Position numbers and translations under genes: made by a program. From Hericium rajendrae (lineage: Eukaryota > Basidiomycota > Agaricomycetes > Russulales > Hericiaceae): a stretch of DNA of 64,000 bases. This document shows, one piece after another, positions 691-39,978 of the stretch. Each line of letters starts with the position of its first letter. Position 1 is the first letter of the stretch. Location: positions 1,364,001 to 1,428,000 of the forward strand of contig CM065889.1 in assembly GCA_033439255.1 (NCBI GenBank), written 5' to 3'. The notes beneath the pieces are model-generated. The model was not told where the DNA came from and did not search any database. It saw only the letters and a list, made by a program, of their open reading frames with translations.

Positions 691-823
691 GAGACACGAT
701 AATGTGGACGTGAACGCGGACGGTGTTGTCGGGGGGACAGGGCTGCTGCAGGCTTGTAGATATGGACGTGTCATGTCGAAGGCGATGAGGGTGTGGTGCA
801 GGGGATGGTGAGAAAGAAAGCAT

Positions 824-899
824 GAGTATCACTTGTTGAATGAGCAATACTCACTTTATTAGTATAACAAGACAATGAAAGATATATTTTCTTACTTAC
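824..899 (-). other. Intron donor, branch point and hairpin module, unit A
   Basis: On the minus strand a GTAAGTAAG donor begins at 899, a TACTAAT branch-point match lies at 864-858, and an imperfect hairpin with arms GAGTAT and ATACTC follows at 852-824. It is one of twelve copies of this arrangement in the window, and one of the more decayed. Confidence 0.65.
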
Positions 900-1140
900 C
901 TTTCGGCCCTCGTAGCATCTGTTTGCCCTCCCACTTTTTGAACGAGACCCGGTGTCGTGTGTTGGAGGGACAGAAGACAGGAAGACGAAGGGAGGAGAGC
1001 TGAAGGGAGTGTTAAGAAAGCACGAAGTCATGTCGAACACTGAAGCCACAGCACTCGACTCACGTGCCTGGCAGTTTGGACTCCAACAAATCAAATAAAT
1101 TCAGTTAATTTGAAAAAAAAAGTTAGAGGTATGAAATGTA

Positions 1141-5651: not shown

Positions 5652-5959
5652 CATCTGAGAAATTAAAATTTTATATAGTCTAGTGTTCATTTATATGTCC
5701 TATCATAATGCTATTAGATCTGTCATCATTTATGTAGCTATCTTTCTCAACTATATAAGGCTATGAGGCCTATCATAGCTTATATAGCAGTAGTTAGACA
5801 CTATATAGTGCTATATATTTCTAAGGGGCAGCTATAGCTGCTATATAAATTCACTGGCTTGCTATGGTCCCTATGGTCCTTATGATCCCTACAGTAAGTG
5901 AGATATGAATACTATTATTACTACCTTAGAAGTCAATTAAGTACAAAAAAAATCAATTA

Positions 5960-7084
5960 TATTTAATGTGGCTAGTAGTACAATCAATTACACTACTAAT
6001 ATGAACAACGCATGCAACACAGACAAGCGTGCTCAAGTGCACCAGGCGCGGCGAGTGTGCAGAGCACAGGAGTTGTGTGTGCAGCACAGCAGGCCTATCC
6101 GCAAGGTGCTGGGCCTGTGCATGAGGCACTGGCCTATCCGCAAGGTGCTAGGTCTGTGCGTGAGGCACGAGAAGCGCCGGGGCTGTGCGCACTGGCGTCG
6201 GGCTGTGGCGGGCTCATATGCGAGACACGGGGTATGCGCGAGGCGCAGCGGGGCACGGCGGTGGGTGTGCTCAAGTCGCCGGGGTGTGGTAGGCTTGTGC
6301 GTAAAGTGCGGCAGGCATGGGTGACACGTCGGGGTTCGGTGGCCACGCACAAGGCACGCCGGATGTTGCACAGGGCGTGAGGCTCCTGCTGGCTCATGCA
6401 CGAGATATTGCGGGCACGGTGGCATCGTCCACGAGGTGCAGCGGGTGTCCGCAGGATATGGTAGGTGTCTGTGGGATACGACAGGCATCGCGGGCCCGGG
6501 GGATGCCGTGGGAGGGTGAGCAAGGCGTGGAGGATGTGAGCGAGACGTGGGGGATGTGAGCAAGGCGCGGGGGATGTGAGCGAGGCACGGGGGGCATGAG
6601 TGAGGCGCGAGGGGCATGAGTGGGGCACGGGGGGCATAGGCGAGAGTGTAGAGGATGTGGGCGAGGCGTGGGAGTGTGGACAAGGCATGGAGAGCATGCA
6701 CGGGGTGCTGGACTGCTGCGGGCCCATACGTGAGGTACGGCGGGCATCCTCTGGGTGCTGGCTCGTATGCGGGGTGTGGCAGGTGCAGCAGAGCATGGTG
6801 GGCATGTGCGAGGCATCAGGCTCATGCGTTACGCAGAGGCCTGCGTAGAGGCTCCGGGGCCTGCATGCGAGCACGCCTTGCATGGCCACGCATGACGTGC
6901 ATGCATGCATGTGCTGGCTGATGTGCCCGTGCATGACCATGGCCATCCGCCAGCCATGTGTGTACTGGCACGCCTGGCCCGTGTGCAAAGGGGCGTGCAT
7001 TGTCCGGTGATTTGTGGAGGCGATGTTGGGAGACGAGGAGTCGATGAGGGAGGGGTGGCAGCGAGGAATGGCAGTGAGGGAGGC
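5960..7084 (-). repeat. GC-rich arm of unit B with about 20-nt tandem repeats
   Basis: Low-complexity GC-rich DNA. Between 6,510 and 6,690 a degenerate unit of about 20 nt (GATGTGAGCGAGGCRCGGGG-like) recurs in tandem. Frames are open on both strands because stop codons are rare in such sequence; none shows a domain. Unlike most sister arms it has no X-box, a trait shared with unit E. Confidence 0.6.
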
Positions 7085-7177
7085 CTGCAAGGGCAAAAGG
7101 TGGCGAGAGTATCGCTCAAATGAGCGATACTCTCTGAGTTAGTACAAAAAAAACATATAGAGGTTTTTTTTACTCAC
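7085..7177 (-). other. Predicted 93-nt intron with internal hairpin, unit B
   Basis: Minus strand: exon ending CAG, donor GTGAGT at 7,177, TACTAAC at 7,144-7,138, then a perfect 13-bp stem (GAGAGTATCGCTC and its complement, 7,134-7,105). A pyrimidine-rich stretch follows and ends in TTGCAG at 7,085. The hairpin lies between branch point and acceptor and hides the AG dinucleotides inside its stem. This copy and unit I have the cleanest acceptor just beyond the hairpin. Splicing is inferred from the sites. Confidence 0.65.
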
Positions 7178-7570
7178 CTGCAGGGCCCTTGGCATCCCGC
7201 TACCCTCTTTCGGTGTTCGGTTTGATGGGAGAGGACAGACAGAAGGGAGGAGGAGAGGGAGAGGTAAGTAGTGGTGGTCGAAGCTCGAGTTGAACATTCG
7301 AACTTCGACACGCATTCAGCCACCGAACGCGCGCGAGTTCGAATGTCTTGAGCTTAGCAAATAAAATAAAATAGCCACAAATCCAAGAAAAAGACGTTGT
7401 GTACAATTTACCAATATAATTTGATTGCATGAGCTAACTACCTAGCTACTGTACTACAGGCTACCAGGCAGCAACACGAACTTAATGATGTCTGCCACCT
7501 TAGTCTCTGATGCAGCATTCCGGCAGCACTCGGGCCAAGTCACGTCACTCACATTTGGCACTCACTATGT

Positions 7571-7879
7571 CTATATAAGGCGTGCATGACGCGCTTGCTC
7601 TCTCTCTTCCCTACCACCACCATCTCTCGTCTCTCGTTACTCTCTTCCCTTTTGCTTTAATCTTCTTATGTTTGATATGTTGTATTCTTGTTTTATTGTA
7701 TCTAACCTTATGTTTTTTCTATAGCCTTTGCATTTTTGCATTTTTATTTTCTTTGGTATGTTGTTATTTTGTTTGATTGTTTTTAACCCTAATGTTCTTC
7801 ATAGACTTCATTTTCGCTTTTATTTCCTTAGGTAAGCCTTATGTTTTTATTTTATTTTGTGATACTGATTTGTTGACTT
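7571..7879 (+). ncRNA. TATA-driven short-exon transcript, unit B (5' part)
   Basis: CTATATAAGG at 7,571-7,580 is followed by a CT-rich leader. Then come two short exon-like blocks carrying the core CATTTT-GCTTTT, each framed by a CTATAG or CATAG acceptor and a GTATGT or GTAAGC donor. The pattern continues at 17,144 beyond the Plavaka insertion, where TTCTTTTGTAG precedes ATCATTTTCGCTTTTTC. No reading frame spans the blocks. A spliced noncoding RNA is the inference; the promoter and splice sites are what is seen. Confidence 0.5.
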
Positions 7880-7909
7880 CATCAGGAACCTTGACAACTT
7901 TCTGATAGG

Positions 7910-8520
7910 TCTGACAGTGCTGATAGTGTCTGATTGTATCTGAGAGCTCCTGATCCATCTGCAGCAACTAATTATTTTTGCAATCTGACAATTTTTTCTC
8001 AGCAGTAATCAGATAATATCAGACACGTTCAGTCAATGTCAGATATACTTTGAAAAATTAGATACTTGTCAGTTTCTAAGCAGATGCATCAGATACCTTT
8101 AGACAATATCAGAAATACTTTGAAAAATCAGATGTCTATTAGTTTTTAAGCAGATGTATCAGACATCTTCAGACAATATCAGAGATACTTTTGAAAGTCA
8201 GATGACTATTAGTTTTCAAGCAGATGTATAAGATATCTTTAGACAAGATCAGAGATCTTATTAAAAATCAGATACTTGTCAGTTTTTTAGCAGATGCATT
8301 AGATACCTTCAGTTAAGTGTCAGAAATCTTGTTGAAAATCAGATGTTTATCAGTCTTTGAACAGTTGCATCAGATTTTTTTAGACAAGATAAGAAACATT
8401 ATAAAAAATCAGATGTCTATCAGTTTTCAGACAGATGCATCAGATCTCTTCAGACAATATCAGAAATCTCGTCAAAAATCAGATGTCTATCAGTCTATCT
8501 TACATGTAAATCACTCATTA
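7910..8520. repeat. Left subterminal tandem repeats of the Plavaka element
   Basis: About seven diverged copies of a roughly 70-bp unit containing TCAGACAATATCAGA, TTGAAAAATCAGATG and TAGTTTTTAAGCAGATG. Such subterminal CAGA-type arrays are typical transposase-binding regions in CACTA-like elements; that role here is inferred. Confidence 0.8.
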
Positions 8521-8935
8521 TCAGATGAGACTGAGTTTCAGCAAGTGCCACTAAAAGCTACACAAAGACATGTAAAGTTAGTATCAATACTATTAGTACT
8601 AGTAGTAGTAAGAATTAAATTTAAATTTGAGATAAGATTCTTACAAGTTAGTAGGTTGTTAACTTGAAGTTCAAATTGAAGAGCCAGTGATCATGCAATG
8701 TAAAATATCAGAAACTCTTGAAACTTTCTGATCAGATCTAATCAGATCAATTAAAAAGTTTTAAGAGTTTTTGATAAAGTAGTGCATATGCATTTACCAA
8801 AACTAACTAAAAATATATGTTTCTGCTGAAGTAAGATCATATTGACAATGTTGCTGCTAAACTGATGATATACAGGTAAAGACTAAATAATGTACTATAA
8901 CAACAAAAAAGGAAACAATCATTCAAAGTCAACTT
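8521..8935. other. Spacer between subterminal repeats and transposase stop
   Basis: AT-rich sequence with scattered CAGAT and a degenerate CATCAGGAA-like block near 8,710 (ATATCAGAAACTCTTG). It probably includes the transposase 3' untranslated region. No gene is seen. Confidence 0.5.
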
Positions 8936-11929
8936 TCAAAAAGCAAAACTATAAGCATGATGATCAGAGTACTTATTTACATAGAAAGAAGAAAATGCAT
9001 CCAAAGAATAAGTATGTTTGAAATCTTTAGGAAGAAACTCAGTCCCATACACTCCAATAAGATGTGCTCCTCGGTAGATTGTGTTGAGATGAACTACACC
9101 CATTACATTCTGATCCTGATCATTAACCTCTGGCTCTACAATCCACATTCCTGTATCTGCATCAGGAGCATCTCCAATGGGTACAAACCATTCAACAAGT
9201 GCACAAGGATAGACATTTTGATTATATTTAAAGGAGAAAAACATTCTAACTCGTGCAACATAAATTCCCCTCATTCCTGGTAGATCAGGATCATGTTGAA
9301 TAAAAACACAATCACGTCGTGCAGGTCCATTGCGCCAGTGAGGTAAAGAATAGATACGATGACGATGCATGCCTGTTATTCCTGATACATCACTAGGAGC
9401 ATAATATGTTGCTATAGCAGAGTGAAACACATCAATCTTATGAGGTGCTGGTGGACAAGTATCCAAATCAACATGCATGGAGGTTAATTCAGGGGTTCCA
9501 TACAACTGATCATATAAGAACTGTTGGATAAGTACAAAAAGATTTGGTAGATTTTGTGTCTCTGCAAGCTGTGATAACTTTCGAGGATATCCTCTTTTAC
9601 GTGTAGCTGAAAGAGTTACTTGAGCAACAATATTATGTCCTTCAGCAACTCCATAATTTGGAAGTTCTATGTCCTCATTGTTCAATTCTCCTGCAGTTGG
9701 ATCTGGTAAAATTTCTGACTGTTCTGCTCTAAATTCCAAAGGTCTGTCTAACATGCCACGATCAATAAAGTCCTTTGTACAAGCATTGAGTTTGTCAAGC
9801 CTCTGATTGGTCATGAGCATCTGACCAAGTGCATTAAATCTGCTAGAACATCTCCATGGCTCTTTGACAGCTTTGATATGTTTAGACTCAGTAATTGCAG
9901 AATCAAGTCCACCTGGCACTGCAAATTCTTCAATCAATGGCCTATAATGCTTGATTGAATGCTGCTTAGGAAGTGAAACTCCCTTTGTTCGAACATCACT
10001 GTCTATGAATACTTGTCGCTCCTCCCAGAATATATTGAGTGTATCATCTATAGCATCTAATGTCTCTTCATCAATGATAGGCTTTCGCACCATGTAGGCA
10101 AAATCTATAACTGCATGAACAGCTCGCACTATTTGTGATGGAACATGACCAACAATAGCAGGAAGAAAAACTTTCATCAGAGCTTTAGAATCATCTCCTG
10201 TCCATTGTGAAAATGCACGACCATCAGGAAATTGACGTAGCTCGGGAAATAATGGAACAGCAGCAATTCTTCGATCAATATCATCAATAATTTTATCTGC
10301 AGCAGTTGGTCCATGCACTTTTCTAAGATATTTTTCTGTCCAATCAACCAGATGATCATGAAACAAGCCTTTGATGATTTGATGAAGTAAATCTGGTGCC
10401 AAAAGGTCATGAATATCTGCACGCTCAAAAGAATCTGTAAATGGCTGTATTTACATGAGAGTCAGTTCATAATAAATGATATATAATTTTTAGTCACATA
10501 CCATGATGTCTCCAACAATTCCATACTCAGACCATAATATATGCTCATCAACAGTATTCATAAGTAATGTTGTATATTCATGGCTACGTCTTATACCATC
10601 ACCACTATCAAGATCTTTTGGTGGACACGTGCATTTTGGACACCAATTTTTAACAATACATGTCATAAGAACCTGCTCAGGATAATCTGCAATATATGGA
10701 CCAATGCCATAAATGACTCGACGTAAATGCCCATCAGGACAACGAACAATATCTGGCACAGTCATTCCAGGTTGCAGATGTTCTAAAATTATTTTCAAAG
10801 ACTCATGCATCATATGTCTTCTAAATCTTTGGAACTTAATGTCATCTCGAGATTCTCTGTCTGCTTTTCCAACAGATAAAAATCCAACCACACTGACTGC
10901 ATCACGATGAGCACGGCGAATATTATTGTGCACATTGCCAATAGATGCATACAAGGGATAATATTCATTGTTTCCTGTACCAACAGACACAATTGTCTTA
11001 TCACTGCCCAGAATAATAGGAACAAACATAGCACCATGAGTTTCTGAGTCTTCAGCAATTTTATCAGCCTGATGCCATGCCCAATTTCCAGACATAAAAT
11101 CTGACCACTGTCTTTTGCCATTTGCCTTGAAATCCTGACGTGGAGAATAGTCAAAGTCATTCTTGAAATCAGGATTTGAAAGTTGATTTTCAATGACTAA
11201 TTTTGGATTACGATACCATACTTCAAATTCAGCAAGCATCCATGATGGTGGATTATGCTCTGGGATAGGTCCTTTATATGTGACTATAAAAGATAGCCAA
11301 GGTGCATTTGCCAATGGTATAGCATCAAGAGTTTCCAATAAATCATCATTATTTGCAAAAGGTGGATCAACATTGTGATGTGCAGCCCATGCATGCATCA
11401 AATCATCATTGAAATCTGCAGAAGTCTGTCCACGACGAAAAAGCAGATCTGCAACTGTATATTCAATACGGTCTTGAAATGGAAACCAGTCATTAAACAA
11501 TCATGGCTCGGGTAAATCTGCAGGAGGAGCACCAGGTGGTAGATCATGTCCAAATTTATTACATGGTGTGCCATCAATAATTGGATGAAATAGAGTCTCT
11601 AAACCATCATCTCGATGTACAGCATAATCATCTCTAAGATGTGTATCAGAATTTGCAGAATCATCATCTTGCAGAGGTGCATCAGAACTTGTATGCATAT
11701 GATCATCATCAGATGAAAGCTCCAAGAGATCAGCTGTAAAAGCCAGTGGAGTCATATGTGGAGTTACAGGAACAGAGACACTAGGTTGAACTGCTGGATG
11801 CATAGCAAACATATGCTGTCGCAAGCCACGTGCAGATACAAATCCTCTCCGACAGGTTGCAAATGTTGGACATGGACATGCCACATTGCGAGGTTTATAA
11901 ATCCTCCTCGAGCCTTGTCCTCGAGCCAT
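8936..11929 (-). pseudogene. Plavaka transposase (one in-frame stop)
   Basis: Two exons on the minus strand: 11,929-10,502 and 10,445-8,936, with a 56-nt intron (GTATGT donor, TACAG acceptor). I chose the ATG at 11,929 because MARGQGSRR leads directly into a zinc finger (C20, C26, H39, H44; CX5C-X12-HX4H), the usual N-terminus of Plavaka transposases. Downstream blocks typical of the family are DWFPFQDR, a long nuclease-fold core, LLHQIIKGLFHDHLV, FNALGQML-TNQRLDKL and the C-terminal RHRIYSLPHW...DCVFIQHD. A TGA at 11,503-11,501 stops the frame near residue 143, right before the DWFPF block, so the copy is probably inactive unless the stop is bypassed. It would cut and join element ends in the nucleus. 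Family assignment is confident; activity is doubtful. Confidence 0.85.
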
Positions 11930-12419
11930 AATATTATCCAATATAATGCCAAGGCTCACAGTACACCTAGAGTACGAGCACAAGATCACTCGAAATCAAA
12001 GAGAGTTCAGCCCAAGTTCAAAATCGAGAGATCAACCCAAGTATGCAGCCACACCCAGAGTATAAGCACAAGATCACTCAAAATCAAAGTCAACCAGATA
12101 AATCTCAATCACTAGACTTCGAGACTCCAAATAGCACAATGATCAGATAAAACTTTATTTAGATGCCTGAACAAGCAATACAAGTTCTGCTCGAAATGCG
12201 AGCACCAAGAAACTGTGGGGCAGTGGCTCAGAGGGATGCACGGGACCTGTAGACAGAGTGTGGCACACGCGAAGACCAGCGACGGAGGTCCAAGCCGTGA
12301 CTGAGACCCACGCGGCTGTGCCCGGGCTTCGGACTTGAACTTGCGCGACGCGAGACTTGAACTTGCAACGAGACTCCTTCCACCCTATAACCACCAGCAC
12401 ATACCCTTTCGTCAGCACT
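11930..12419. promoter_or_regulatory. Shared intergenic region between transposase and accessory genes
   Basis: The 490 bp between the divergent start codons should hold both promoters. A direct repeat of roughly 80-bp spacing (GAGTACGAGCACAAGATCAC and GAGTATAAGCACAAGATCAC) lies at about 11,970 and 12,058. No clear TATA box was picked out. Confidence 0.5.
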
Positions 12420-13925
12420 ATGCGTCGCCGTACTCGTTCTAAGGCTAAGGACCCTCACCTAAGTACCGATGAGGATCTCCCCCCTCCACCCAAGAAGAAA
12501 CAGAGAACCTCGAAGACAGCAACTGCCGAAGCTGATGTGTCCACGAGCAGGCCCTCGCAGCGCACGCGCGCGGCTCCCAAGAAGAAGCCTGCTGCCCGGA
12601 AGACAGCCGCGCAACGGCGGGCACAAGAAGAGGCGGAGCTCGCTGCAGAACGGATCGGGCTATTCGAGGACGATGTAGTCACTGCAGATGCAGACGCCGC
12701 TCGTACTGCGGCAAGGCCTGAGCCTTCGGCTCGAAAGAAGGTTCTTCGCATTGTCATCGAGCTCCCGAGGCAGATGCGTGGGATGGCAAAGATGGCTACA
12801 CGCATGCAAGCAGCAGTGGATGCAGACAATGAAACAGCTGATGAAGGTGAGTATCTCCTCATATTATGATGCGATAGATACTGACTTACCTCGAGATATA
12901 ACAGAAGAGACAGCACCCTCAGCCAAGGGCTCGAACAAGCGCGCCCCGAAGCAGACGGGTAGGAAGGGAAACAAGATCACTACGAACGCGAAGATGGCAG
13001 ACGAGCACGAGGATGGGCCTGATGCTATGATAGTTGACGAAGGTAAGTACTTTCGAATGTAAGACGAGATATACAAACTTACCTTGATTAAACACAGCCA
13101 ACACGGCTGCCTCGCAGAAGAAAGTGAAGGGGAAGCAGAAGGAAGTGTTGGAGGTTGAGGATGAGCCTGAGCCCATGATTGTCGACAACGGTGAGTACAT
13201 TCTCGTTTGACAATATGAGGTACTGGCTGACTTACCTTGAGAACTAGAAGACAACACTCTTCTCGCTGATATCTCCACCAAAGCGCCCGGTAGCGAGACC
13301 GAGTCGAGTGGCGATGAAGAGGTCCCTGCTGCTCCGAGGTGGGCCTCCCGCTCGCAATAGGCACTAGCACGACGTGAAGAGGATGAAGAGTCGGGTGTGG
13401 ATGATGAGGAACGGCGTGAAGCCGAGTTCGAGAGAAGGCTGAAGCTCGTGCACGACCAGACGTTGAGGTGGGAGAAGGAGTTGGAGGAGATTGCAGGGGA
13501 TATCGAGGATATCGTACAGGACAATAGAGCCCGCGAGGCTAAATGGGCCAAGAACAGTATTGAAGGTGAGCGATCCTGACGATAAACGATCACAAGACGT
13601 ACCTAATGTGTTCCCCACACCAGAAGACAATGCCACAGACTCGGATTTTGACCCGATCGAAGACGACTCGGACGTTGAGAAAGCTGAGGGCAAGCGAAGA
13701 TACGCGAAGGCCGAATACGAGGGAGATACTGAGATGGATGATGAAGGCGGAGAGTCCAGAGCGAGTAAGAACAAAAAGGTGACGAAGAACAAAGGAAAAA
13801 CAGTTCAAGGGAAGAGAAAGGGCAAGAAGAGCAAGAAGGGCGACTGGAGAGAGCTGGTAAGGAGCACGAAGGGGCGTGGTGAAGGTGAGGACCAGGGCAC
13901 CTTAATCGGGAAATCAGACCTGTAA
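12420..13925 (+). CDS. Accessory protein A of the Plavaka element: charged, low complexity
   Basis: Starts MRRRTRSKAKD. Predicted exons are 12,420-12,846, 12,905-13,042, 13,098-13,190, 13,248-13,565 and from 13,624, the introns all 55-58 nt with GTGAGT, GTAAGT or GTGAGC donors and CAG or TAG acceptors. The product is rich in Lys/Arg and Asp/Glu blocks (PPPPKKKQR, AAPKKKPAARK, DSDFDPIEDDSDVE, GKRKGKKSKKG) and contains a probable coiled coil around 13,400-13,560. Such composition suggests a nuclear, perhaps DNA- or histone-binding protein. A TAG at 13,358-13,360 interrupts exon 4 in frame, and residues downstream continue the same charged style, so either the copy is damaged or the exon borders differ. 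It may continue into the next gene rather than stop at 13,925. No known domain was recognised. Confidence 0.5.
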
Positions 13926-13984
13926 GTGTTTGTTGATCGAGTGTCTACGAAAATTTCCTAACTCGATCACGCACTCATGCACTC

Positions 13985-16191
13985 ATGCTTGACTCTGCGC
14001 GTGAAATCCACCACTCTCGTTTCCTTTCGAATGTGTCTATGCCTCCCAAACACAAATTCTGCCCAATCCTTCCTCTCGATGATCCCGCGACTTCGCAGGC
14101 CTCGGACTACCAATACGAGCAGCGCCAAGCTGGGCCTTTGTTCGAATTGGCTCGAGAAGATCGACAAGTCGAACCACAAATGACACGCCGGCCAAGTTAT
14201 CGAGGACGAGAACATCCAGGAGCTCCCGACGGATATCTTTGAGGATGCCGAGGAGGCTGTAGAGGAGGCTGTAGCCTAGTCGTGACGTGGGCACTTCGGG
14301 TGGAAAAGTGAAGAAGGTACGTCACTATTTCCGTTGTTTACCTACGCTATCTAACAGTATTCTGCTGCAGGTACATTCGATCGTCTCGATTCACTGCTCC
14401 TCCACTGCCAATTCATCGAATTCGACGATACTCGGGCCTATCACCCCTACACCACAACCCCGTGGGCTTATGGCTTCAACTCGGTCTACTGGGCCGAGCG
14501 TTCGCTTTGCGAACCCCGACGGTACGTTTCGTGTTCTGTCCAGATGTTTTTTTTTTGAACTACATATTCCTCGCAGCCGGACCCCGTGTATCCCTGCCAG
14601 CTCCGGTCATCTCAACTCGGCAGAGCACGTCTGCCTCGGCTCGCCGCTCGGCCCCAACCTCAAGTGCCCCGGTCTCCACGTATCGCACGCCAAAACCACA
14701 AGCATGCGCGAGCACCGCGAGCACCACGAGTGCGACTCGTACGGCAACAACGCCTCTTCTGGTATCGCAGAAAGGCCTTTCCACTCGCAATCAGCCCCTG
14801 GCCCAGCAAAACACCATTCGCGCACGTCAGAATGTGCGCCAGCACAAATCTGATGGTGCGCGTTCAATATATTCTCTATTCTATACATTGCTGATGAGTT
14901 GTCGTAGTTCATGATCGCACCACAGGATCTCACGTTGTCTCGGACAACAATAATATGGTATGTACATGTTCTATTTGCCTTGTACGTCATATCACCAATG
15001 GTGAATCCCATTCATTATTGACAAATTACTTACAGAGAGCAAGTTCATCGACAAGGCCAGCAAATACGAGCAATGCGAGTAACGGGAGCTCGCACATAGT
15101 AAGTTTTCTTATTATCGTAATATTTCATCTGACCACTGTATCTATGACAGGTGCGGGAGCCCGAGGGTGATCAGGACAATATTCAAGACTCGGCGCCAAT
15201 GAAATACAACCTCCGACATCTCCCGCCGGGCAGCCAAGAAAGGTTCAGCAAGGTATATGTTCCAAAATGGAAGGAATTCCTAGGCGTGCACGAGGACCCT
15301 TGGGTCAATGTACCTGACCTGCTCCCCGAGGCACAGGCTTTGTGGGATGCAACCTATCCTGATATCCCTCGCATCCTGGATGTCAATGGTGTAGTTTTCT
15401 CTCTGGTGCGTCGCGTGATTTTAATTAAGTCTGACTCTTTGTTGTGGTAGCTACAGCAACGGTCGTACGATTGGCGGAGCAAGTTTGCGTTTCATGCATA
15501 CCATTCTGTTTTGGCACATCTGGAAACTGCCTGGCCAGAGCCGGATGCACTGAGGGAGGATGCTGTGCGCTGGCAGCTCGGTATGAAGAATGAGCCCGAG
15601 GATATTCGAGTCCCCTTCGTCTACAGTGATGCACATATATGCAAAGCTGAAGGCAAAGATGAAGACGAAGATGAATCTGGTTCAGTAAGTCTTTTATTCC
15701 TTATAGTGGATTTGGTTTAACTTTCTGCAGGTGGTGTATAGTGGCTCTTTCCTTTCGGTGCCTATTCTGCGCACGTTTGCACAGTCTCACCTCATGTATG
15801 TCATGCAAGTTCCGGCTGACTCCCATCTGCCAGACCCTGCAGTTGGTGCATTGGCCTTGGCCATCAGTGCGGTATGTTGCTTTTGTATGCATTTGTTCTA
15901 GCTCTAATTATGTCTCAGGTCGAACGGGCCTTTTTGCAGCATGTCAAGTTTACAAACGAAGATTCCCTTGACGACAAGGAGAAGGCCAGAGGCCAATTCA
16001 ATGCTGGACTGTGGCTCACCACTACGCAAGAGTGGGTGGCCAGCACCAAGCAAATCTCTGCAGTAAAGTGGCAGAAGATTATGTCTGGTGCAGTGCCTTA
16101 TCTTAAATCTCGTTATCGTCCATCTGTTCCATCTCATCCTTCTGTTGCTTCTGAGCGCTGTCTTGCGATGCAGGGAAATATGAGTGAGTAG
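13985..16191 (+). CDS. Accessory protein B of the Plavaka element (DUF6532-like C-terminus)
   Basis: Begins at about 13,985 or 14,040 (MPPKHKFCPILPLDDPATS) and ends at 16,191. It is split by small introns near 14,316-14,370, 15,100-15,150, 15,405-15,450, 15,690-15,730 and 15,870-15,918. Readable blocks include FDDTRAYHPYTTTPWAYGF, MKYNLRHLPPGSQERF, LLPEAQALWDATYPDIPR and, near the end, VGALALAISAVERAFLQH with GLWLTTTQEWVAS. This last pattern (a hydrophobic AL-A-AVERA helix followed by a Trp-containing segment) resembles DUF6532 proteins common in Agaricomycete transposable elements. A related gene sits in pieces at 34,182-35,580. Frames between 14,180 and 14,370 do not join cleanly, so exon borders there are uncertain. 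Function is unknown. Confidence 0.5.
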
Positions 16192-17143
16192 ACTACTATA
16201 GGATTGTCTTCATTACTTCTTGCTGCTTTCTGTCTCTTTGCTCTAGACTCCTATGTGTTCTTCTTTGCTATGCCTCTCTCTTTATATGCTTTTTTTTCTG
16301 GATTCTTAGCCACATGGGTGTCAGGTTGATTACTTTACATCTTTTAATCTGCAAAATTTTAGAGTTGCAGTCATTTCTGATTTTGGTCTGATCTGAGTTG
16401 ACTTAACTAAAGAGCCTGATCTGAGTTATCTTAGCTGACAAGTCTGATCTGATTTAGCTTTTCTAACAAGTCTGATCTGAGTTAACTTATCTGATGAGTC
16501 TGATTCAACTATTCTGATAAATCTGATCTGAGTTAACTTATCTGATGAGTCTGATTCAACTATTCTTACAAGTCTGATCTGAATTAACTTATCTGATGAG
16601 CCTGATTCAACTATTCTGATAAACCTGATCTGAGTTAACTTATCTGATGAGTCTGATTCAACTATTCTGATAAATCTGATCTGACTTAACTTATCTTATG
16701 AGTCTGACCTAACTCAACTTTTCTGATAAGTCTAATCTGAGCTAACTTATCTGATCAACCTGATCTAACTTAACCATTCTGAAATTTTGAACCATCTCTG
16801 ATATAACTGATATTTTCATACAAATCTGATAGATTCTGCAATAGTCAAGCAACTCTGATTAACATCTGATATATCTGATTTTTATAGAATATCTGAGATA
16901 TCTGACATTAGATGTCAAATCTGCTGTCAGAGATCATTTCTGACATCAGAAGACAAATCTGAGTAATTTCTGATGTCAACTGCAGTCAGCTTGAGGTCCA
17001 ATAAACTGATGCCCTCTAATGCCTTCTGAGGCCTTCTGATGCCTTCTAATGTCTTCTGATTTGTCTGATTGAACTCGCAGCAGACCTGTCAGATACTATC
17101 AGCTGACCGCAGATCAATCAGAAAGTTGTCAAGGTTCCTGATG
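16192..17143. repeat. Right subterminal repeats of the Plavaka element
   Basis: After the stop codon comes a short spacer. Then 16,430-16,770 is a tandem array of a 51-bp unit made of TCTGATCTGAGTTAACTTAT and CTGATGAGTCTGATTCAAC-type blocks, followed by irregular TCTGA-rich DNA up to the terminal inverted repeat at about 17,105-17,143. Confidence 0.8.
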
Positions 17144-17657
17144 TTCTTTTGTAGATCATTTTCGCTTTTTCTTATCTTGACAGTAAGTTTTATCTTTATC
17201 TTATCTTTTATCTTATCTTGTCTTTATCTTACAGTCTTACCATATCTTATAGTGTATCATATTGAATATCTGAGATGTCTTATAATTAGCATCTTTTGAG
17301 TAACATTGTTGGTAAAGATGATATAGAGTCAATAATAGTCTAACTAGCTGCATATAATATGATACTAAGGATATACCATATAGCTAATATAGCTATAATA
17401 ATCATCATATGTTATGACAGTTATAATAGTTATCATCTTATAACAGATAACTATGATGACTATGATAGTTACTACCTTACCCCATGATAGCTATGATAGC
17501 CCTGTATAGATTGTCTTACTGCTATAGAGTGCTATGATAGCTCTATATAGATTGTCTTGCTGCTATAGAGTGCTATGTAGAAAAGGAGACTGCTATGGCC
17601 CTATCAGAGCTATATAGGCTACATAGTGCTATATACCACTGTTAAATTTCTCAGATG
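17144..17657 (+). other. Remainder of unit B: short exon, AT arm and right end
   Basis: Resumes the interrupted intron (TTCTTTTGTAG) and the exon-like block ATCATTTTCGCTTTTTC, then AT-rich DNA. From 17,400 it is the CTATGATAG/CTATCATAG arm ending in AAATTTCTCAGATG. It matches unit E (25,421-26,000, reversed) almost base for base. Confidence 0.75.
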
Positions 17658-19200: not shown

Positions 19201-19609
19201 GAATCCCAGACGGAATCGGAATTTGTGGTTGCTGGGTGCTTGCCGAGTGTTGTGGCAGAGACTGGATGCCAGACTTTACTACGTTGATGCTGCTGCTTAC
19301 AGATTCACAGTTCAGTAGATACACAGTGTTCTCATACATTCTAATTAAATGTATAATCTATCACTGTCCCTTTTTTCGTTGAATTTATACAAGTTTATTT
19401 GATTTGCTGAGGCTTGAGCAACAAAGCTTTGCTCATTCAGTGGCTGAAGCACCGAGTTTAACATGTCGAGACTTCACTCCTTTTTACCAGTCTCCCTTCC
19501 CCTCCTTCGTGTTTCCTCCTCCAGCCTCCTTCCTTCCATTTCTTTCATTCTCTATTGGCTTTCAATACGGCTGGGATGGTTTTTTTAGCAGATACTTAGA
19601 GGGCCTTAG

Positions 19610-19686
19610 GTGAGTAAAAAAAAAGCCTCTTATCATTTTTTCATACTAATCAAGAGAGTGTCAATCATTTTTCGAGCGACACTCTC
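19610..19686 (+). other. Intron donor, branch point and hairpin module, unit C
   Basis: Donor GTGAGTAAAA at 19,610, TACTAAT at 19,644-19,650, hairpin 19,654-19,686 with arms GAGAGTGTC and GACACTCTC. It is followed by about 110 nt of pyrimidine-rich sequence without AG, then CACAG. Confidence 0.7.
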
Positions 19687-20900
19687 AATATCTTTTATTC
19701 TGTTGATCCCACATCCTCGCGCTACCATCCTACGATCCTGCTGCCTTTTTTGCACTCTCATCGCCCCTTCCTTGGCCTGTCTACGCCACATCCACGCCCT
19801 GCACACAGCTCGTACACCCCATGCCTGACTCCAACAGGCTGCGACCCCTGCGCATGCCTCCGACCACCATCTCCTTCCACGTGCACCAGCATGCACAAGG
19901 CTACAGCATGCATGCATGTGTGTACCACGTGACATCATCTGCATGACGTCAACAACATGTGCACACAGGCCACGTCATCGCCCATGCCCCACGTCCATGC
20001 ATGTGCATGCACCATAGTCCCGTTGCCATGGCAATGGGACTCGGACATCATTCATGCCTATCGGCCACGACCCCACATGCTTGCCTCAATCCCTGCAAGG
20101 TCTCATGCTCACGTTCAACACCGTGCATGCTTGCAATGTCCTGTCCATGCACTCAAGCCCCCACACCCACTCACAACACCCTGCACCTGCTCACAACGCC
20201 TCGGACATGCATGCCATGCCCGGTTGCATGTATGCTCCTGCACCTGCTCAACTCAACATGCCCTGCGTGTGTGCACATCGATCTGCACAGGTGCACAACA
20301 ATCACACATGCGTGACGTGCCATACAGTGCCTCTTCGTGCATGCAGAATGTTCTGCAGGCCCGCTTCAGGCCTCCTGCACATGCTCGACATCTGCGCGTG
20401 CCCGACATCCCCCGCACGTGTCCAGCTCCACCTCCACATGTGCACAGATGCCAGTGCATGGCAGCACTGCAAGACCCCATCCCACAACAATGCATGCACG
20501 ACACCCAGCATTCACACTCAATGCCACTTGCCTACAACGTCCTGCATGCGCGTATGCTCCCGCATGCCCGCTCAACACCCTGCACCCTCCAGATGCTCTG
20601 CGTACATGCGCAACATCCTACATGCATGTACACAACCTGCATGCATGCACGGCAGCCCTGACTCCATTTGTGGGCATGGCCACCCGCATGCAGCTACACA
20701 TGGTCCAGCTTGCCGTGCATGGACCATGTATGCTGTGTGCGGCCCACGCCTACCTCTGTGCTCTCTGTGCTGGCATTCGTGCATGCCGCACCACCTTTTG
20801 TATGCACATGCTGTCTTTTGTGTGCCCGCGCTGTCTTTGCACCTGTGCCTGCACCCTCCACAGTGACTTGCATGCCCTCCGCATCCTGTGCCCTATGCAG
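19687..20900 (+). repeat. GC-rich arm of unit C with X-box
   Basis: GCATGC, CATGCA and CACGTG-type words in low-complexity DNA. An X-box variant GTTGCCATGGCAAT lies at 20,022-20,035 inside a longer palindrome (20,017-20,040). Long open frames on both strands lack any domain and are judged chance openings. Confidence 0.55.
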
Positions 20901-23373: not shown

Positions 23374-23774
23374 AAATCTTGGGTGAAGCCGAGAATGGTA
23401 GCTGCTGGGCACTGCTGAGCATCGCATCAGGGACTGGGCCAGTAGATTTTGCTAAGTCGAGCTTGCTGCTCAGGAATGTACCCTACCCTACATACCTAGT
23501 ATTTTCATTCAGTTTGATGTACCATACAGTCTATAGCAGCAGTCTTTTTCTTCAAATTATCACGATTTTATTTGATTTAGGGAGGCTCGGACAACTTTGC
23601 ATCGCGCATTCGGTGGCTAAAGGACCGAAGACGCGTTGACTTATCCTCACACTTCCTCACCCTCCCCTTCATCTCTCCTCGCTCTCCTCGCTCTCCTCGC
23701 TCTCCTCAATTCTCCTCTACTCGAAGGGCTGTGGGAATTGGTGGAGACTCGGCGGGGCTCAAAATTGGCTCAAG

Positions 23775-23851
23775 GTTAGTAAAAAAATGCCTATATTCGT
23801 TTGTATCGTACTAATTCCGAGAGTATCGCTCATTATCCGAGCGATACTCTC
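23775..23851 (+). other. Intron donor, branch point and hairpin module, unit D
   Basis: Donor GTTAGTAAAA at 23,775, TACTAAT at 23,809-23,815, perfect 13-bp stem GAGAGTATCGCTC with its complement at 23,819-23,851. The next AG is about 130 nt downstream after pyrimidine-rich sequence. Exon 1 upstream has the stem-loop TTCGGT/ACCGAA at 23,609-23,629. Confidence 0.75.
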
Positions 23852-24103
23852 GTCCTTTCGTGCCTCTGCCATCCCGTCGCCCTCTCCCTCCCCTTCACCG
23901 TCCTCTCGCGTCCTCGCCGCATCAACATCGCTGCCACGTCGCACATGCGACATCCTCTGCGCGTGGTCCGACACCCCGCATACAGCTTCATCAGCCCGCA
24001 CGTGCTCTCGCGCATGCCTGTGCCTGCCCTCCAGGCCGTTCATGCCCCGCCCACCTCAACTTCCTCATACGGCCACGACCACAATGCAAGCACGACTATC
24101 GGG

Positions 24104-25420: not shown

Positions 25421-25939
25421 CATCTGAGAAATTTAACAGTGGTATATAGCACTATGTAGCCTATATAGCTCTGATAGGGCCATAGCAGTCTCCTTTTCTA
25501 CATAGCACTCTATAGCAGCAAGACAATCTATATAGAGCTATCATAGCACTCTATAGCAGTAAGACAATCTATACAGAGCTATCATAGCTATCATAGGGTA
25601 AGGTAGTAACTATCATAGTCATCATAGTCATCTGTTATAAGATGATAACTATCATAACTGTCATAGCATATGATGATTATCATAGCTATATTAGCTATGT
25701 AGTATATCCTTAGTATCATATTATATGTAGCTAGTTAGACTACTATTGACTCTATATCATCTTTATCAACAATGTTACTCAAAAGATGCTATCAACTCAT
25801 ATAAAATAAGATAATTATAACACATCTGAGATATTCAAAACATCGGAAATTTAAAAGCATTATATTCCAAGTAATATTTGATTATAATACATCTACAAAT
25901 ATTACTAACTAATCTATGATACACTATGAGATATGATAA

Positions 25940-26308
25940 AAGATAAGATAAGATAAAACTTACTGTCAAGATAAGAAAAAGCGAAAATGATCTATGAAAG
26001 AAGTCAACAAATTAGTATTACAAGATAAAATAAAAACATGAGGCTTACCTAAGGAAATAAAAGCGAAAATGAAAGTCTGCAAAGAACAATAGGGTTAAAA
26101 GCATTCAAACAATATAACAACATACCAAAGAAAATAAAAAAGCGAAAATGCTAAGGTCACAAATAACATAAGGATAGAGACAATATAACAATATAACAAC
26201 TTACCAAACATATGAAAGTTAAAACAAAAGAGGAAGAGATGACGAAAGACAAGAGATGGTAGTGGTAAGGAAGAGAGAGAGAAAGCAAGTCGTGCATGCC
26301 TTATATAG
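25940..26308 (-). ncRNA. TATA-driven chain of short exons, unit E
   Basis: From CTATATAAGG (minus, 26,308-26,299) the leader ends at a GTAAGT donor near 26,203. Three exon-like blocks of about 25-29 nt follow, each with CATTTTCGCTTTT and each bounded by a CTTAG, TGCAG or CATAG acceptor and a GTATGT, GTAAGC or nearby GTAAGT donor; CTAAT-type branch points are visible in the gaps. No frame runs through them. This intact copy shows the site that the Plavaka element occupies in unit B. Confidence 0.55.
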
Positions 26309-26711
26309 ACGTGGCAAGCAGAGCACCAAATATGGGTGACGCGACTCGGCCCAGGTGCTGCCGGATGCTGCATCAGAGGCTAAGGCAGCAGATTTTCTTA
26401 AGTTCGTATCGCTGCCCGGTAGCCTGTAGTACAGTAGCTAGGTATATGGCTGATTCAATCGAATTATATTAATGAATTGTATACAGTCCCTTTTTCTTAG
26501 ATTTTTTTGCTATTTTATCTGATTTACAAAGTTCGAGACATTCGAACTCGCGCGTGTTTGGTGGCTGAACCTCCGAAACGCATGTCGAAGTTCAAATATT
26601 CGACTCGACTCCTCCCACCACCACTCCCTTTCCTCTCCTCTTCCCCTCCCTCTGCCTCTCCCATCAAACCGAACACCGAAGGAGGGTAGCGGGATGCCGA
26701 GGGCCCTGCAG

Positions 26712-26784
26712 GTGAGTAAAAAAAACTTCTATATGTTTTTTTTGTACTAACACAGAGAGTATCGCTCATTTGAGCAATACTCTT
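26712..26784 (+). other. Intron donor, branch point and hairpin module, unit E
   Basis: Exon 1 ends CCTGCAG; donor GTGAGTAAAA at 26,712, TACTAAC at 26,745-26,751, hairpin 26,755-26,784 with arms GAGTATCGCTC and GAGCAATACTC. ACAG lies just before the hairpin. The next AG after the stem is about 145 nt away. Confidence 0.75.
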
Positions 26785-27950
26785 GACTTCCTCTCGCCCT
26801 CGCGGACCTCTCCCATCCCCTTGCCTCTCCTCTCGCCTCGCCTCTCGCCGCCTCTCGCCGCCATCTTGCCCTCGCCGACCCACCCCCGACTTCACCGCCA
26901 CACACACTGCCGGACGACGCACTCAGCAGCGCCGCCTCGTGCACGGGCCAGGCACACTGCACGCTGGCTCCGCAGTTCATGCACGGGCCCACGCACTGCG
27001 CATGACCCCACCATGCTGCGCACGCCAGCGCACGCATGGCTGGGGATGGCCACAGCCACGGGCGGATACACCAGCGCACGCCAGCACATGCTCGCGGGCC
27101 CTGGTGCCTCGTGCACAGGCCTCTGCATCGTGCATGGGCCCAGTGCCTCGTGCACGCCCACTGCCCCCGCTGTGCCCCGCTGCACCCCACCGCGCCCCAC
27201 CGCATCCCGCTGCACCTTGCAGAGGAGCCAGCGCCTGGCAGATGCCCGCTGTACCTCGTGTACGGGCCCACGGCAGCCCAGCATCCTGCGCACGCTCACC
27301 GCGCCTTCGTCGCGCCTCGTCCACATTTGCCACGCCTCGCCTACGCCTGTCGCGCCTTGCTCATGAGCCCGCGGCAGCCCCAGGCCCTGCGACACCCGAC
27401 ACCTGCCAGACCTCGCGAATGTCTGCCACACCCCATGCACGGCCATCGCGCCACGCCGTATCTCGTGCATGGGCCAGCGGGAGTCCCATGCCCCACGCAC
27501 GGGCCTGCCGCACCCCGGCAACTCAGATATGCCCGCCGCCGCTCACCACCACACCTTGCACATGAGCCAGCGGCAGCCCCATGCCCCAGGCAGACCAGCG
27601 CCTGACGCACAGGCCCCCATGCCTCGCGCTCGCCCGTTGCACCTCGTGCATGGCCCCCAATGCCCCACGCATGGGCTCACCGCCCGCTGCATCTTGCATA
27701 CACCCCCCATGTCTCGCCTATGGACCCACCGCAGCCTGACATCGGTGCGCATGCCGCTACGCTATCCACATGGCCACCACGCCTCCCACGCCACACCTAT
27801 GGCTGCCACGCCTCGTGCATGACCTAGCACCTCGTGCATGGGGCCCATTGCACCCCACGCATGACTGCTGCCATGTGCACGACTATCGCGCCATGCACGC
27901 CTGCCGCACCTCATGTGCATGTGCGCCTTGTCCGTGGGGCATGCTTGTTC
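26785..27950 (+). repeat. GC-rich arm of unit E
   Basis: Highly repetitive CTCGTGCACGGGCC/CCACGCCT-like words, open on both strands. It aligns in reverse with the GC arm of unit B. No domain and no X-box were found. Confidence 0.55.
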
Positions 27951-28289
27951 ATATTAGTAGTGTACTTGATTGTACTAGTAGCCACGTTAAATATAATTGA
28001 TTTTTTTTTTGTACTTATTGACTTCATAGTATTCATATCTCACTTACTGTAGGGATCATAAGGACCATAGGGACCATAGCAAGTCAGTGCATTTATATAG
28101 CAGCTATAGCTGCCCCTTAAAAATATATAGCACTATGTAGTGTCTAACTACTGCTATATAAGCCATCATAGGCCTCATAGCCTTATATAGTTAAGAAAGA
28201 TAGCTACATAGATGATGATAGACCTCATAGCATTATGATAGGACATATAAATGAACACTAGACTATATAAGATTTTGAATCCTCAGATG

Positions 28290-28404: not shown

Positions 28405-29789
28405 CATCTGAAAAATTAAAAATCTATATAGCTCAGTACTAAAGTATGTGTCCTAGCATAGTGCTATGGGGTCTATATAGCCACTCTTGCATTTATGTAG
28501 TGCTATGCACATTATGATAGCCTTTATAGCAGTAGGCAGAAGGTATATAGATCTATGTACCTGTAAGCCATTGCTATCAGAGCTATGTACCATCATAGCC
28601 TTGCTATGGATTCTATAAGCCCTATGTCAGGTATGGTAGACTCCATAATTACAAGTCAAAATTTTCAATATTATTAGATGAGGGGCTTCTGACTTCAAAA
28701 ATATTTTATTGCTATAAGTAACATAGTTACAAAAACTAATTGTAACTATAGATACTACTCAGGCAGCATCGCGGACAGCCCGCGGTCGTCGTTCGCATGG
28801 CATCAGCACCTTACGTGCGATAGCAGGGTCTCACGCGGGCTGCTGCCTGCTGGGGCTGCCGGAGTCCTTGTGCATGGGATTATGTTGCGCAAGGATATTG
28901 ATGTTGCAAGCGAGGTACACGGAAAGCGAGCAGCAGCACAGACAGCGTGAATGGGGTGCGGAGCGTGTGGATACAGCGCAGAGGGAGAGAGGTGGCGCAT
29001 AGGGCGGGACGACTGCCCGGATGGTGCGAAAGCGACGCGGAGGGCGGGGAGGTGGCGCGAAAGGCGGAAAGGAGGTGCAGAGGGCACGGAGGGTGCGGAG
29101 GTGGCAGGGATGGCATGGAGGCAGTGGGGATGGCATGAAGGCGGCACAGATGGCATTGACACCATCAGATAAATGTGTAAGTGGTACATAGCTCTATAAA
29201 GTCTATATAGATTTCATAGTTCCATAGCACTGCCCTTTTCTACATAGCTTACATAGCTAAAGGGAGATACTATATGGTGCTATGGAGCTCAGGGATCATG
29301 CTATGGAGTGCTATCATAGCTATAAGAGCTGACTATGTAGCTATGATAGTATGGCTAGCTATGAAAGCTATAAGTGTCTATGAAAGCTATAAGGCTTATA
29401 TATCTTACCTATCTTATACTCAATATATATCTCACATATTCTATATTCAATATGTGTCTTACATATCTTATATTCAATATGTAGGCTCAATATATATATT
29501 AAAATCATAAAATTTATTAGAACTATAAATCTTTTCTACAATCATATTAGAATCAATAACAAATAATCACACAAATATAAATTATTTCAATACATCAAGA
29601 TTATATTGATATTACAAACACTACTACTAACTAAAAAGCAAATTTAAATTTAAATAGGATAAGATAAGATATATAAGAAGATAAGATAAAAGATACATAA
29701 GATAAGATAAGATATATATAAGATAAGATATATAAAAGATAAGACAAGTAAGAAAAGATAAGAGAACATTAGTCTTAGAAGATAAAGAT

Positions 29790-30094
29790 AATATGTACAA
29801 ACTTACCAGAGTAACAAAAAGCGAAATCTAAAAAAGACTTGAAGATGTTAGTATTGATATAAGCAATAAGAGACTTACAATTGAAAGTTACCTTAGAGAT
29901 AGCAACAACGAGCAAAAAGAAAAGAAAAAAAACGACAAACGAGCAAGAGATGATGACGAGCGAGCAAGAGATGATGACGAGCGAGTAAGAAACGACAACG
30001 AACGAGCAAAGGACGTCGACGAAAGCGTCGACGTGGCAAGAGATAGTGGGAGTTAAAGAGCAAGAGGCAACGCGCGTCGCGCGAGCCTTATATA
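29790..30094 (-). ncRNA. TATA-driven short-exon transcript, unit G
   Basis: TATATAAGG on the minus strand, a leader with TTGCTCG repeats ending CTAAG before a GTAACT donor, an AATACTAAC branch point, TTTTTTAG acceptor, then the 21-nt block ATTTCGCTTTTTGTTACTCTG followed by GTAAGT. Confidence 0.55.
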
Positions 30095-30472
30095 CGAATC
30101 CCGGGCGGAGCCGGGATTGGTGGTTGCTGGGCGCTTGCCGAGCGTCGCGTCGAGACTGGGCGCCAGACTTTACTGAATGGACTTGGCTCCCTGTGAGCTT
30201 CATGCATAGTAGATACTTACTATGCTCATTAGTTCGAATTGTATATACAATTTCTAGCCATACTGTTTTTTTCTAAATTAATGCGATTTTCTTTGATTTG
30301 TAGTGGCTCGAAGAACGTAGCTTCGCTCGTTCGGTGGCTGAAGCACCGAACGGCGCGTCGTTTGACTTCGTCTCGAACTCCACCCTTCCTCTCAGCTCAT
30401 CTCTGTCGTTGTTCCTCATCACCCGCATCAACACGAAAGCCGGATGGATTGGGCAAAGGTCGAGGGACTTAG

Positions 30473-30550
30473 GTGAGTAAAAAAGCATTTATATTCTCTT
30501 TAAATCGTACTAATCTCGAGAGTCTCACTCGATAATGAGTGAGACTCTCG
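30473..30550 (+). other. Intron donor, branch point and hairpin module, unit G
   Basis: Donor GTGAGTAAAA at 30,473, TACTAAT at 30,508-30,514, then a perfect 14-bp stem (30,517-30,550; arm CGAGAGTCTCACTC, loop GATAAT). Relative to unit B, stem bases differ on both sides in a compensating way. Confidence 0.8.
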
Positions 30551-30889
30551 TTTTTGAGAGTTCTTCGATACTTTACGACCCCCTGCATGCCCTTCGACAC
30601 CTCTCCTCGCATTTTGCACACCGTCCGCGCCTGTCTCCTTCCCCGCGTTTTCGACAACCCCGCGCCGCCGACACGTCATTCCACGGCCCCCCCACGACCC
30701 CTCGCCTGTCTGTCGCAGCCCGTCAGTGCTCGACCATCTCCGCACGTCATCCATGCGCGACGTCAATGGTGCGATAACGCGTGGGGCTTTCACCGGCACA
30801 CGCACGGCCAATACCATACCACGCATGAGCACTTCCAACACCCGGCCTCAAAAGCCTGCCTACGCCCGTGGACGGCCAGCAAAGTGAAC

Positions 30890-30923
30890 GTCGAGTCTCG
30901 TTGCCACAGCAACGAGACTCGAC
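30890..30923. promoter_or_regulatory. X-box inside a 34-nt palindrome, unit G
   Basis: Arms of 15 bp (GTCGAGTCTCGTTGC and its complement) around CACA. The core GTTGCC-AC-AGCAAC keeps both RFX half-sites with one departure at the centre. Confidence 0.5.
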
Positions 30924-31640
30924 AACGCGTTGTGTGGCTCCATACTGCGCCGCCAGCCATACGCCCGTTTGCCCGCGAGCACGGTCCCACACGACAACTC
31001 CAGCGGACGGCCACGCCACCCTGTGCTAGCGGGCGGCGCCGCACGCTGATGTACGGCCCCGTCTGCGCGCCCGTTTCTGCCGCGCACGGACGCACGACAG
31101 CATACGACAACGCCAGCACACGGCCCCGTGCGCCAGCGCCAGCGCCTGGATGCACGCGCATGGATCCCATGAACACTGCGCAAGCCCACACCCGTCCCTG
31201 CACGGCCAGTGCCAGCGCGGACACGACGCGCACGTTGCGCAGAGCCCCATCGCGCCCCTCACGGACTCAATGACCCACGCATGGCCGTGGCCGTATCCGC
31301 GCGTGAGTCAAAGCAACTGCGCGACCCGCACGCGTTGCGCACGTTGCGCAGCCCTTGCGCACATTCCGCACCCCTCGAGCACTGCCTCGCCCTTCGCACA
31401 TGTCTCGCGCCCTTTGTGCACGTCCCGCCCCCGTCCCGCCCCCGTCCTGCCCGACCTGCAGCCTCACGACGGCCTCAGCCTTCCGCATATGCCCTCCACG
31501 CTTTGCTCGTGGCTCAGGTGTCTCGCGCGTGGCTCGTGCGTATTGCATATGTCTCGCAGGCATCGCGCACGGCCCGCGAGCATTGCGCACAACTCCGTGC
31601 ACCTGTTTATGACCCGAACACATCGCGCGTAGCTCCCCGT
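30924..31640 (+). repeat. GC-rich arm of unit G
   Basis: GC-rich, low complexity, CACGCG and GCGCAC words; no gene is supported. The right AT arm follows to 32,039. Confidence 0.5.
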
Positions 31641-32542: not shown

Positions 32543-32839
32543 CCGACTGTTGTTGTGTCATTGTCGTTGTCATTTGGGGATGTTGAGATGGGGTGGCAGG
32601 TGTTGAGACAGGGTAGGGGCTGTCACGGCAACGTGGAGGGCGTGCACGGGCAGGCGCAGACAGGTGCGGGCTGTTGAAGCTCATTGAGGTGGCGCCCAGG
32701 ACATCGGAGAGGATGTCGCGTGTTGTGACACGACGGTGATGCAAGAGATGCGGCGAGGGTGTGAGGAGGGCCGCGAGGACGCGAGGAGGGCAACAAAGTC
32801 GAGGAAGAGGGCGATGGGGAGCCAGAGGCATGAAAGAAT

Positions 32840-32914
32840 GAGAGTATCACTCGTTATTCGAGCGATACTCTCGGAATTAGTACGATAACACAGATATATA
32901 TGGTTTTTACTTAC
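32840..32914 (-). other. Intron donor, branch point and hairpin module, unit F
   Basis: Minus strand donor GTAAGTAAAA at 32,914, TACTAAT at 32,882-32,876, hairpin 32,872-32,840 (arms GAGAGTATCGCTCG and CGAGTGATACTCTC). Over 150 nt without AG follows. Confidence 0.75.
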
Positions 32915-39969: not shown

Positions 39970-39978
39970 CTCTGCATG

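Follow-up and report, generated by a model that had tools for sequence, protein, structure and literature searches.

A hairpin-bearing candidate intron module repeated in transposons of Hericium rajendrae

We describe, in a 64,000-nt stretch of the Hericium rajendrae genome (the window, which belongs to a genome of 46.8 Mb in 19 contigs), a repeated module in which a conserved, covarying and stable stem stands behind a branch-site motif; in RNA this stem would form a hairpin, followed by a putative acceptor. We put the chances at about even that the module is a spliceosomal intron, carried in presumably noncoding transcripts of non-autonomous PlavakaB-type transposons, whose second splicing step would go to a distal acceptor and, in a minority of copies, to a near one. 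The sequences suggest that in these elements the final splicing step is delayed or directed elsewhere; from the sequences we infer that the module is transcribed, that its donor and branch site are used and that the hairpin acts in this delay or redirection of step two.

The copy on which the original prediction centred lies on the minus strand (7177-7085) and consists of GTGAGT, TACTAAC 33 nt on, a hairpin 3 nt further on and a final CAG, 93 nt in total, so that the predicted coordinates (7085..7177) and intron length were correct. It folds with a z of -7.5 relative to shuffles, and the CAG of its tail is retained in the near copies L003-L009. A second predicted intron, of 87 nt, corresponds to 61834-61916 (minus strand), and the stems that had been quoted were located as well, namely TGTCACTTG/CAAGTGACA at 63509-63593 and TCTCACTC/GAGTGAGA at 30469-30553.

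A covariance model of 85 positions, built from 18 divergent copies and here called R1, finds twelve full-length modules in the window, each with E ≤7.7e-6, which is also the number of copies with donor, branch motif and hairpin that had been predicted. The next three matches in the window (E <0.001) are the antisense hairpins of three of the twelve, and none of the R1 matches there is a lone hairpin without donor and branch site. Over the 59 sequences searched, R1 gives 85 full modules, whose donors read GTGAGT (54), GTAAGT (27), GTGAGC (3) or GTTAGT (1); removal of those at least 70% alike behind the hairpin, or with less than 120 nt behind it, leaves 41 divergent copies with <70% identity over the 150 nt behind the hairpin. 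Among these 41, 38 have donor and branch motif 32-36 nt apart, 35 carry the motif as YNCTAAY and 25 start the stem 3 nt past it; the hairpin is mostly of 12-17 bp and its loop of 3-10 nt. The interior between donor and branch site differs in large part between copies, all of which are related and come from one genome, whereas the donor, the branch site, the spacing and the hairpin persist. In its donor and branch site, which match the consensus and stand at a workable distance, the module resembles U2-type spliceosomal introns. Genome-wide, exact patterns were matched 211 times with TACTAAY and 162 times with TGCTAAY, each then followed by GRGAGT, and 42 times with TACTAAY plus GCGAGTAT; these three disjoint patterns total 415 matches in 46.8 Mb against none for reversed controls, a number of pattern matches in which a site with two donors may count double and looser stems and donors are left out. 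Coding as the cause of the conservation was rejected by inspection, as the donor-to-branch length spans all three frames, and as the long ORFs listed around the modules are largely GC-rich, show lowered residue entropy and in many cases stay open in two frames of the same strand.

Table 1. Module copies and host transposons in the window. Lengths given for the further copies run from the donor to the first YAG behind the hairpin.
Feature	Coordinates	Strand	Basis or remark
Splice donor GTGAGT; preceding exon end ...CTGCAG	7172..7177	-	sequence
Branch-site motif TACTAAC	7138..7144	-	sequence
Perfect 13-bp hairpin	7105..7134 (arms 7134-7122 and 7117-7105, loop ATTT)	-	folding, covariation
20-nt tail with acceptor TTGCAG at its end; subfamily feature	7085..7104	-	sequence
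Covariance-model match of the same module	7101..7181	-	R1, 84.7 bits
Module copy; 154 nt	818..903	-	R1
Module copy, mismatched (degenerate) stem; 199 nt	19606..19690	+	R1, folding
Module copy; 211 nt	23771..23855	+	R1
Module copy; 215 nt	26708..26788	+	R1
Module copy, stem TCTCACTC/GAGTGAGA; 246 nt	30469..30553	+	R1
Module copy; 244 nt	32836..32918	-	R1
Module copy, donor GTGAGC, left-pointing in 35932-40177; 106 nt	37733..37816	-	R1
Module copy, longer stem, right-pointing in 35932-40177; 117 nt	38595..38691	+	R1, folding
Module copy; 142 nt	46374..46456	+	R1
Module copy, near acceptor TTTTCAG; 87 nt	61834..61916	-	R1
Module copy, stem TGTCACTTG/CAAGTGACA; 219 nt	63509..63593	+	R1, folding
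Host transposon of the 7177-7085 module, CATCTGAGAAAT ends, duplication GA	5652..17657	-	paired by eye; ends agree 16/20
Host transposon, 2869 bp, duplication TG	25421..28289	+	best of three pairings
Host transposon, 2877 bp, duplication AC; left end as in the L043 group	29163..32039	+	best of two pairings
Host transposon, two divergent modules, 4246 bp, duplication TG	35932..40177	.	best pairing
Host transposon, 3328 bp including short insertion 47450-47861, duplication AT	45161..48488	+	

Behind the hairpin, possible acceptors are scarce. Over the 41 divergent copies, YAG occurs 11 times in the first 60 nt against 32.6 expected (z -4.2), i.e. three-fold more rarely, and is about two-fold rarer than in shuffles at 60-120 nt, whereas the controls over the first 60 nt are not depleted (RAG 13 against 14 expected; GA 72 against 47) and the antisense counterpart CTR shows 69 against 79 (z -1.4). 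In successive 60-nt bins the ratio of observed to expected CAG climbs from 0.36 through 0.57, 0.96 and 1.2 to 1.4, so that CAG is back at expectation by 120-180 nt and above it by 240-300 nt. Copies entirely without YAG number 32 of 41 for the first 60 nt (18.8 in shuffles, maximum 28) and 22 of 41 for the first 100 nt (9.1, maximum 20; 1000 shuffles), and on 18 copies 15 AGs were counted in the 100 nt behind the hairpin where 35.1 were expected. Within the window, a YAG lies within 20 nt of the hairpin in two of the twelve copies, an acceptor at the usual distance thus not being general to the module, and for eight the stretch from the donor to the first YAG measures 142-246 nt. At single loci, the 26708..26788 copy has CGCGG at the position of CGCAG in its relative L009, and a GAG stands 6 nt behind the hairpin of the 30469..30553 copy. 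As had been predicted for AGs near the branch point, a YAG stands at the stem foot in 45 of the 64 copies with a hairpin, a set that includes many close relatives; a YAG about 5 nt from the branch A should be too close for use.

As an internal control, 79 donor-plus-branch sites were divided according to whether a strong hairpin follows (64 sites) or is lacking (15 sites), at a cut-off strength that 166 of 2000 random window stretches also reach. Six of the 15, sorted by eye, are module copies with weaker stems, and nine sites (eight introns) remain, in which a YAG follows the branch motif at 11-20 nt in six, at 5-6 nt in two and at 77 nt in one. The intron of the Plavaka gene is likewise ordinary-looking (GTATGT, CTGAC, TACAG). 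Together, the YAG depletion, the hairpin-less sites and the ordinary Plavaka intron suggest selection on the module as a sense-strand splicing signal, with near acceptors being avoided in most copies. However, YAG is likewise low well ahead of the donor, between 240 and 120 nt upstream (78 counted, 137 expected; z -5.7), where RAG is normal, and since local composition can therefore give a like signal, the case for acceptor depletion is weakened; composition does not account for the way in which CAG rises with distance. RAG itself falls behind the hairpin (z about -2 at 60-120 nt and -3.2 at 120-200 nt), GA is reduced as well beyond 60 nt, and TAG stays scarce as far as 400 nt. The first AG behind the hairpin is a YAG in 26 of 41 copies, no more often than composition would give, so that the zone has no clear acceptor at its end and the distal acceptor is only putative.

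The hairpin sits where comparable introns of the same genome carry their acceptor, and we propose that the stem might keep the zone beside the branch point unusable. Given the YAG-poor tract behind the hairpin, step two would then have to use a distal YAG or, in the minority, a near CAG. In this minority, which would include the 7177-7085 copy, the CAG 20 nt past the hairpin could be used with the hairpin merely looping out, and the looped-out stem would leave, in this subfamily, an effective distance of ~23 nt from the branch motif, near that of most hairpin-less sites. The original prediction that the hairpin steers 3' splice-site choice is thus supported in part: because a clean acceptor right behind the hairpin is the exception (two of twelve), steering to a nearby site fits a minority, and delay of step two or distal choice fits the rest. 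The alternative offered with it, that the module is by nature an exon-borne structured RNA, may also apply. A hairpin that merely shortened a distance could be deleted, and the conserved stem sequence therefore asks for another role and hints at a factor bound to the stem.

Among the rival explanations, spliceosomal 3'-end formation survives best, although we consider it improbable: the donor would be cut, step two would be too slow, and the 5' exon would be released as a functional RNA. Such a process would directly explain the YAG depletion behind the hairpin, and the presumed 5' exon has a palindrome of its own in 11 of the 41 copies. A branch site fully complementary to U2 together with a far acceptor are also the conditions given for the telomerase RNA of fission yeast, S. 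pombe TER1, in the text available of that report (PMC4299874), and a strong branch site with a long acceptor-poor stretch of this kind is found in most of the 41 copies, though not in the 7177-7085 copy itself. However, good near acceptors are present in the subfamily of that copy and in 61834-61916, and modules occur in series, which would be needless for a terminal processing signal. Just as doubtful to us is the broader idea that a transposon family has evolved a module for first-step-only splicing, composed of a strong donor, a U2-perfect branch site, a hairpin that blocks and a zone poor in acceptors. The RNA released, either a structured one from the 5' exon or a stable branched one, might then be of service to the element; if true, this would amount to spliceosome-made RNA 3' ends outside telomerase RNA, in hundreds of copies.

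Inspected by eye, the modules in series share their presumed transcripts with ordinary-looking small introns upstream. Up to five modules fan both ways from one central region in L013 (7048-8047) and L066 (741-1578); in L013 there is no YAG between modules 2 and 3, and the first AG past module 2 is the AAG abutting donor 3, which resembles an exon of length zero. In the module-bearing transposons (25940-26306, minus strand; 7570-7880 and 62470-62560, plus strand), inspection by eye shows a divergent TATA-like promoter, TATATAAGG, which leads to an apparent string of 25-29-nt micro-exons, most with ATTTTCGCTTTT, that are separated by short ordinary-looking introns. Upstream of the modules of L049, L052 and L026 the central region is a different one, in which CATATATGG lies at the middle of a long inverted repeat. 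The module of L052 comes after a short intron of ordinary appearance and a micro-exon of 13 nt, GCTGGGAATAAAG; in L026, GCTGGGAATAAAG recurs behind a lost acceptor AG. Two further palindromes accompany the modules. One, like GTCTCGTTGCCATGGCAACGAGAC and similar to an RFX/Crt1 X-box, lies ~150-400 nt behind the branch motif in six of nine units inspected (818, 19606, 23771, 30469, 32836 and 46374). The other, TTCGGTG-GCTGAAG-CACCGAA, is the one counted above in the presumed 5' exon of divergent copies; it lies ~145-176 nt upstream of the donor, for example in the 30469 copy, and has the compensated variants TTTGATGG/CCATCAAA and TTCAGT/ACTGAA.

For six of the twelve window modules a host could be assigned, each time a DNA transposon of ~2.7-4.2 kb with CATCA or CATCTGA ends and a 2-bp duplication; no end pairing was found for the modules at 818, 23771, 32836, 61834 and 63509, and that for 19606 is doubtful. 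The host of the 7177-7085 module is split by a Plavaka insertion at 7880-17143. The element at 35932-40177, which we take to be the "hAT-like element" of the original prediction, ends in CATCAGGA/CATCAGAA (15 of 20 end bases alike) with a TG duplication and is PlavakaB-like rather than hAT, since target duplications of hAT elements are usually of 8 bp, with 5-7 bp in some, and PlavakaB termini are CATCA..TGATG with duplications of 2 or 3 bp, according to the accessible part of the source (PMC12730594). The L043 group comprises nine copies, 86-97% identical, with a common right end and, in eight of them, a common left end; these ends, CATCAGATAAATG...CTGATTTTTCTGATG, stand ~2.68 kb apart, and an exact 2-bp duplication is present in seven of the eight. 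In its ends (CATCAGATAAATG..TTTTTCTGATG) and duplication the group fits PlavakaB, several window units having CATCTGA instead. The intron as the mobile unit itself, an introner, was rejected because the ends of the L043 element are ~1.2 and 1.5 kb from the module.

The genome is rich in transposases (132 matches to Plavaka PF18759 and at least 172 to KDZ PF18758), and a Plavaka transposase is the presumed mobiliser of the module-bearing elements. A regular neighbourhood of modules and transposase genes was considered and rejected by eye in C1 and C2; in C1, one Plavaka match and, among the KDZ matches listed, one KDZ match lie <2 kb from a module. A Pfam scan of 20 of the 58 window ORFs of at least 150 aa recognised no transposase in the module-bearing units, but only in the nested Plavaka, as might be expected if the module were a fossil by descent, that is, a leader intron from autonomous ancestors kept in old copies without present function. 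Some degenerate stems (19606-19690) would fit this reading as well; we hold it, however, to be less probable still than 3'-end formation, as much of the interior is unlike from one subfamily to another whereas the module persists and shows compensatory changes, and as YAG is depleted behind the hairpin. The nested Plavaka itself has CATCAGGAACCTTGACAA ends, a TT duplication and PF18759 in two ORFs parted by a short intron. At 17809-18218, 41502-41723 and 47450-47861 lie short elements whose ends resemble those of the Plavaka element and which are probably miniature derivatives, and 42651-43973 (minus strand) holds retrotransposon fragments with gag and aspartyl protease matches.

The stem was further analysed for covariation and folding. 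In the 18 divergent copies, seven of the 14 stem pairs are changed on both sides, a number reached by 2 of 500 shuffles, and the covariation score was reached by none of 500; the count of further pair types was reached by nine of 500. Under an R-scape-like null that keeps the tree, for which 53 of the 85 modules were left once near-duplicates had been removed, the top three of 3003 column pairs are stem pairs. Their E values are 0.12, 1.65 and 2.8 over all 3003 pairs, none <0.05, and 0.0005, 0.008 and 0.013 over the 14 stem pairs only, covariation in the other 11 stem pairs not being significant under this null. The predicted compensation beyond shared ancestry is thus borne out, at modest strength, for three of 14 pairs when only stem pairs are tested. 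Fold z values of the twelve window copies range from -7.5 to -1.1, with two weak at -1.1, and an Rfam scan of the window at gathering thresholds gave no matches. Wobble counts over 81 distinct rows are 63 G-U and 51 A-C cells and do not tell RNA from DNA, CpG decay being a confounder. Least probable, and in our judgement quite unlikely, is a palindrome that acts in DNA as the binding site of a protein, such as a transposase or a regulator, and is accompanied by splice-like signals. Such a palindrome would covary alike, so that covariation alone leaves RNA and DNA undivided, and it would suit the identity of GAGTATCGC in 12 of 18 divergent copies, but it sits poorly with a loop variable from 3 to 10 nt, with a donor and branch site that stand at a fixed distance and in a fixed orientation, and with a depletion of YAG on the sense strand that hardly touches the antisense CTR.

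Several known systems resemble the module in part, as far as the text available of the respective reports describes them. Introns of S. pombe and S. cerevisiae with a stem between branch point and acceptor, where the stem was proposed to shorten the effective distance and was found to cover cryptic acceptors (PMC12350175, PMC9508853), share the position of the stem behind the branch point; unlike the module, they are individual host introns with a used acceptor, whereas here a near-constant covarying stem recurs in hundreds of copies, mostly without a near acceptor. In SpTER1, a strong branch site and a far acceptor uncouple step one from step two (PMC4299874), and most module copies have a strong branch site and a putative far acceptor, but the module is repeated, has its hairpin behind the branch site and no known product, and its cleavage is putative. 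Human AG exclusion zones, long AG-poor tracts between a distant branch point and the acceptor (PMC1431707), differ in that depletion in the module is strongest for YAG, starts behind the hairpin and has no clear acceptor at its end. PlavakaB elements, on the same partial basis, have in common with the module units the CATCA..TGATG ends and short duplications, with Plavaka transposases abundant in the genome; in the ORFs scanned, however, no transposase was recognised in these units, and several have CATCTGA ends. Fungal introner-like elements and stwintrons, in the accounts available, also comprise many similar introns, some with stable structure, but the module does not move by itself: where ends were found, it is enclosed in an element that has ends and target duplications of its own. 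In the literature searched, within the terms used, no published report of such a module was found. What seems new is that one stem device recurs hundreds of times, within transposons as far as hosts were assigned, and that it is seldom followed by a near acceptor.

If the module is used, the genome would hold several hundred natural variants of one arrangement of branch site, hairpin and acceptor, and would thus offer a ready-made test of how a stem controls step two and of the ways in which transposons make use of the spliceosome or escape it. In Cryptococcus, transposon RNA is known to be marked for silencing when its splicing stalls; if used, the module could therefore be either bait or shield.
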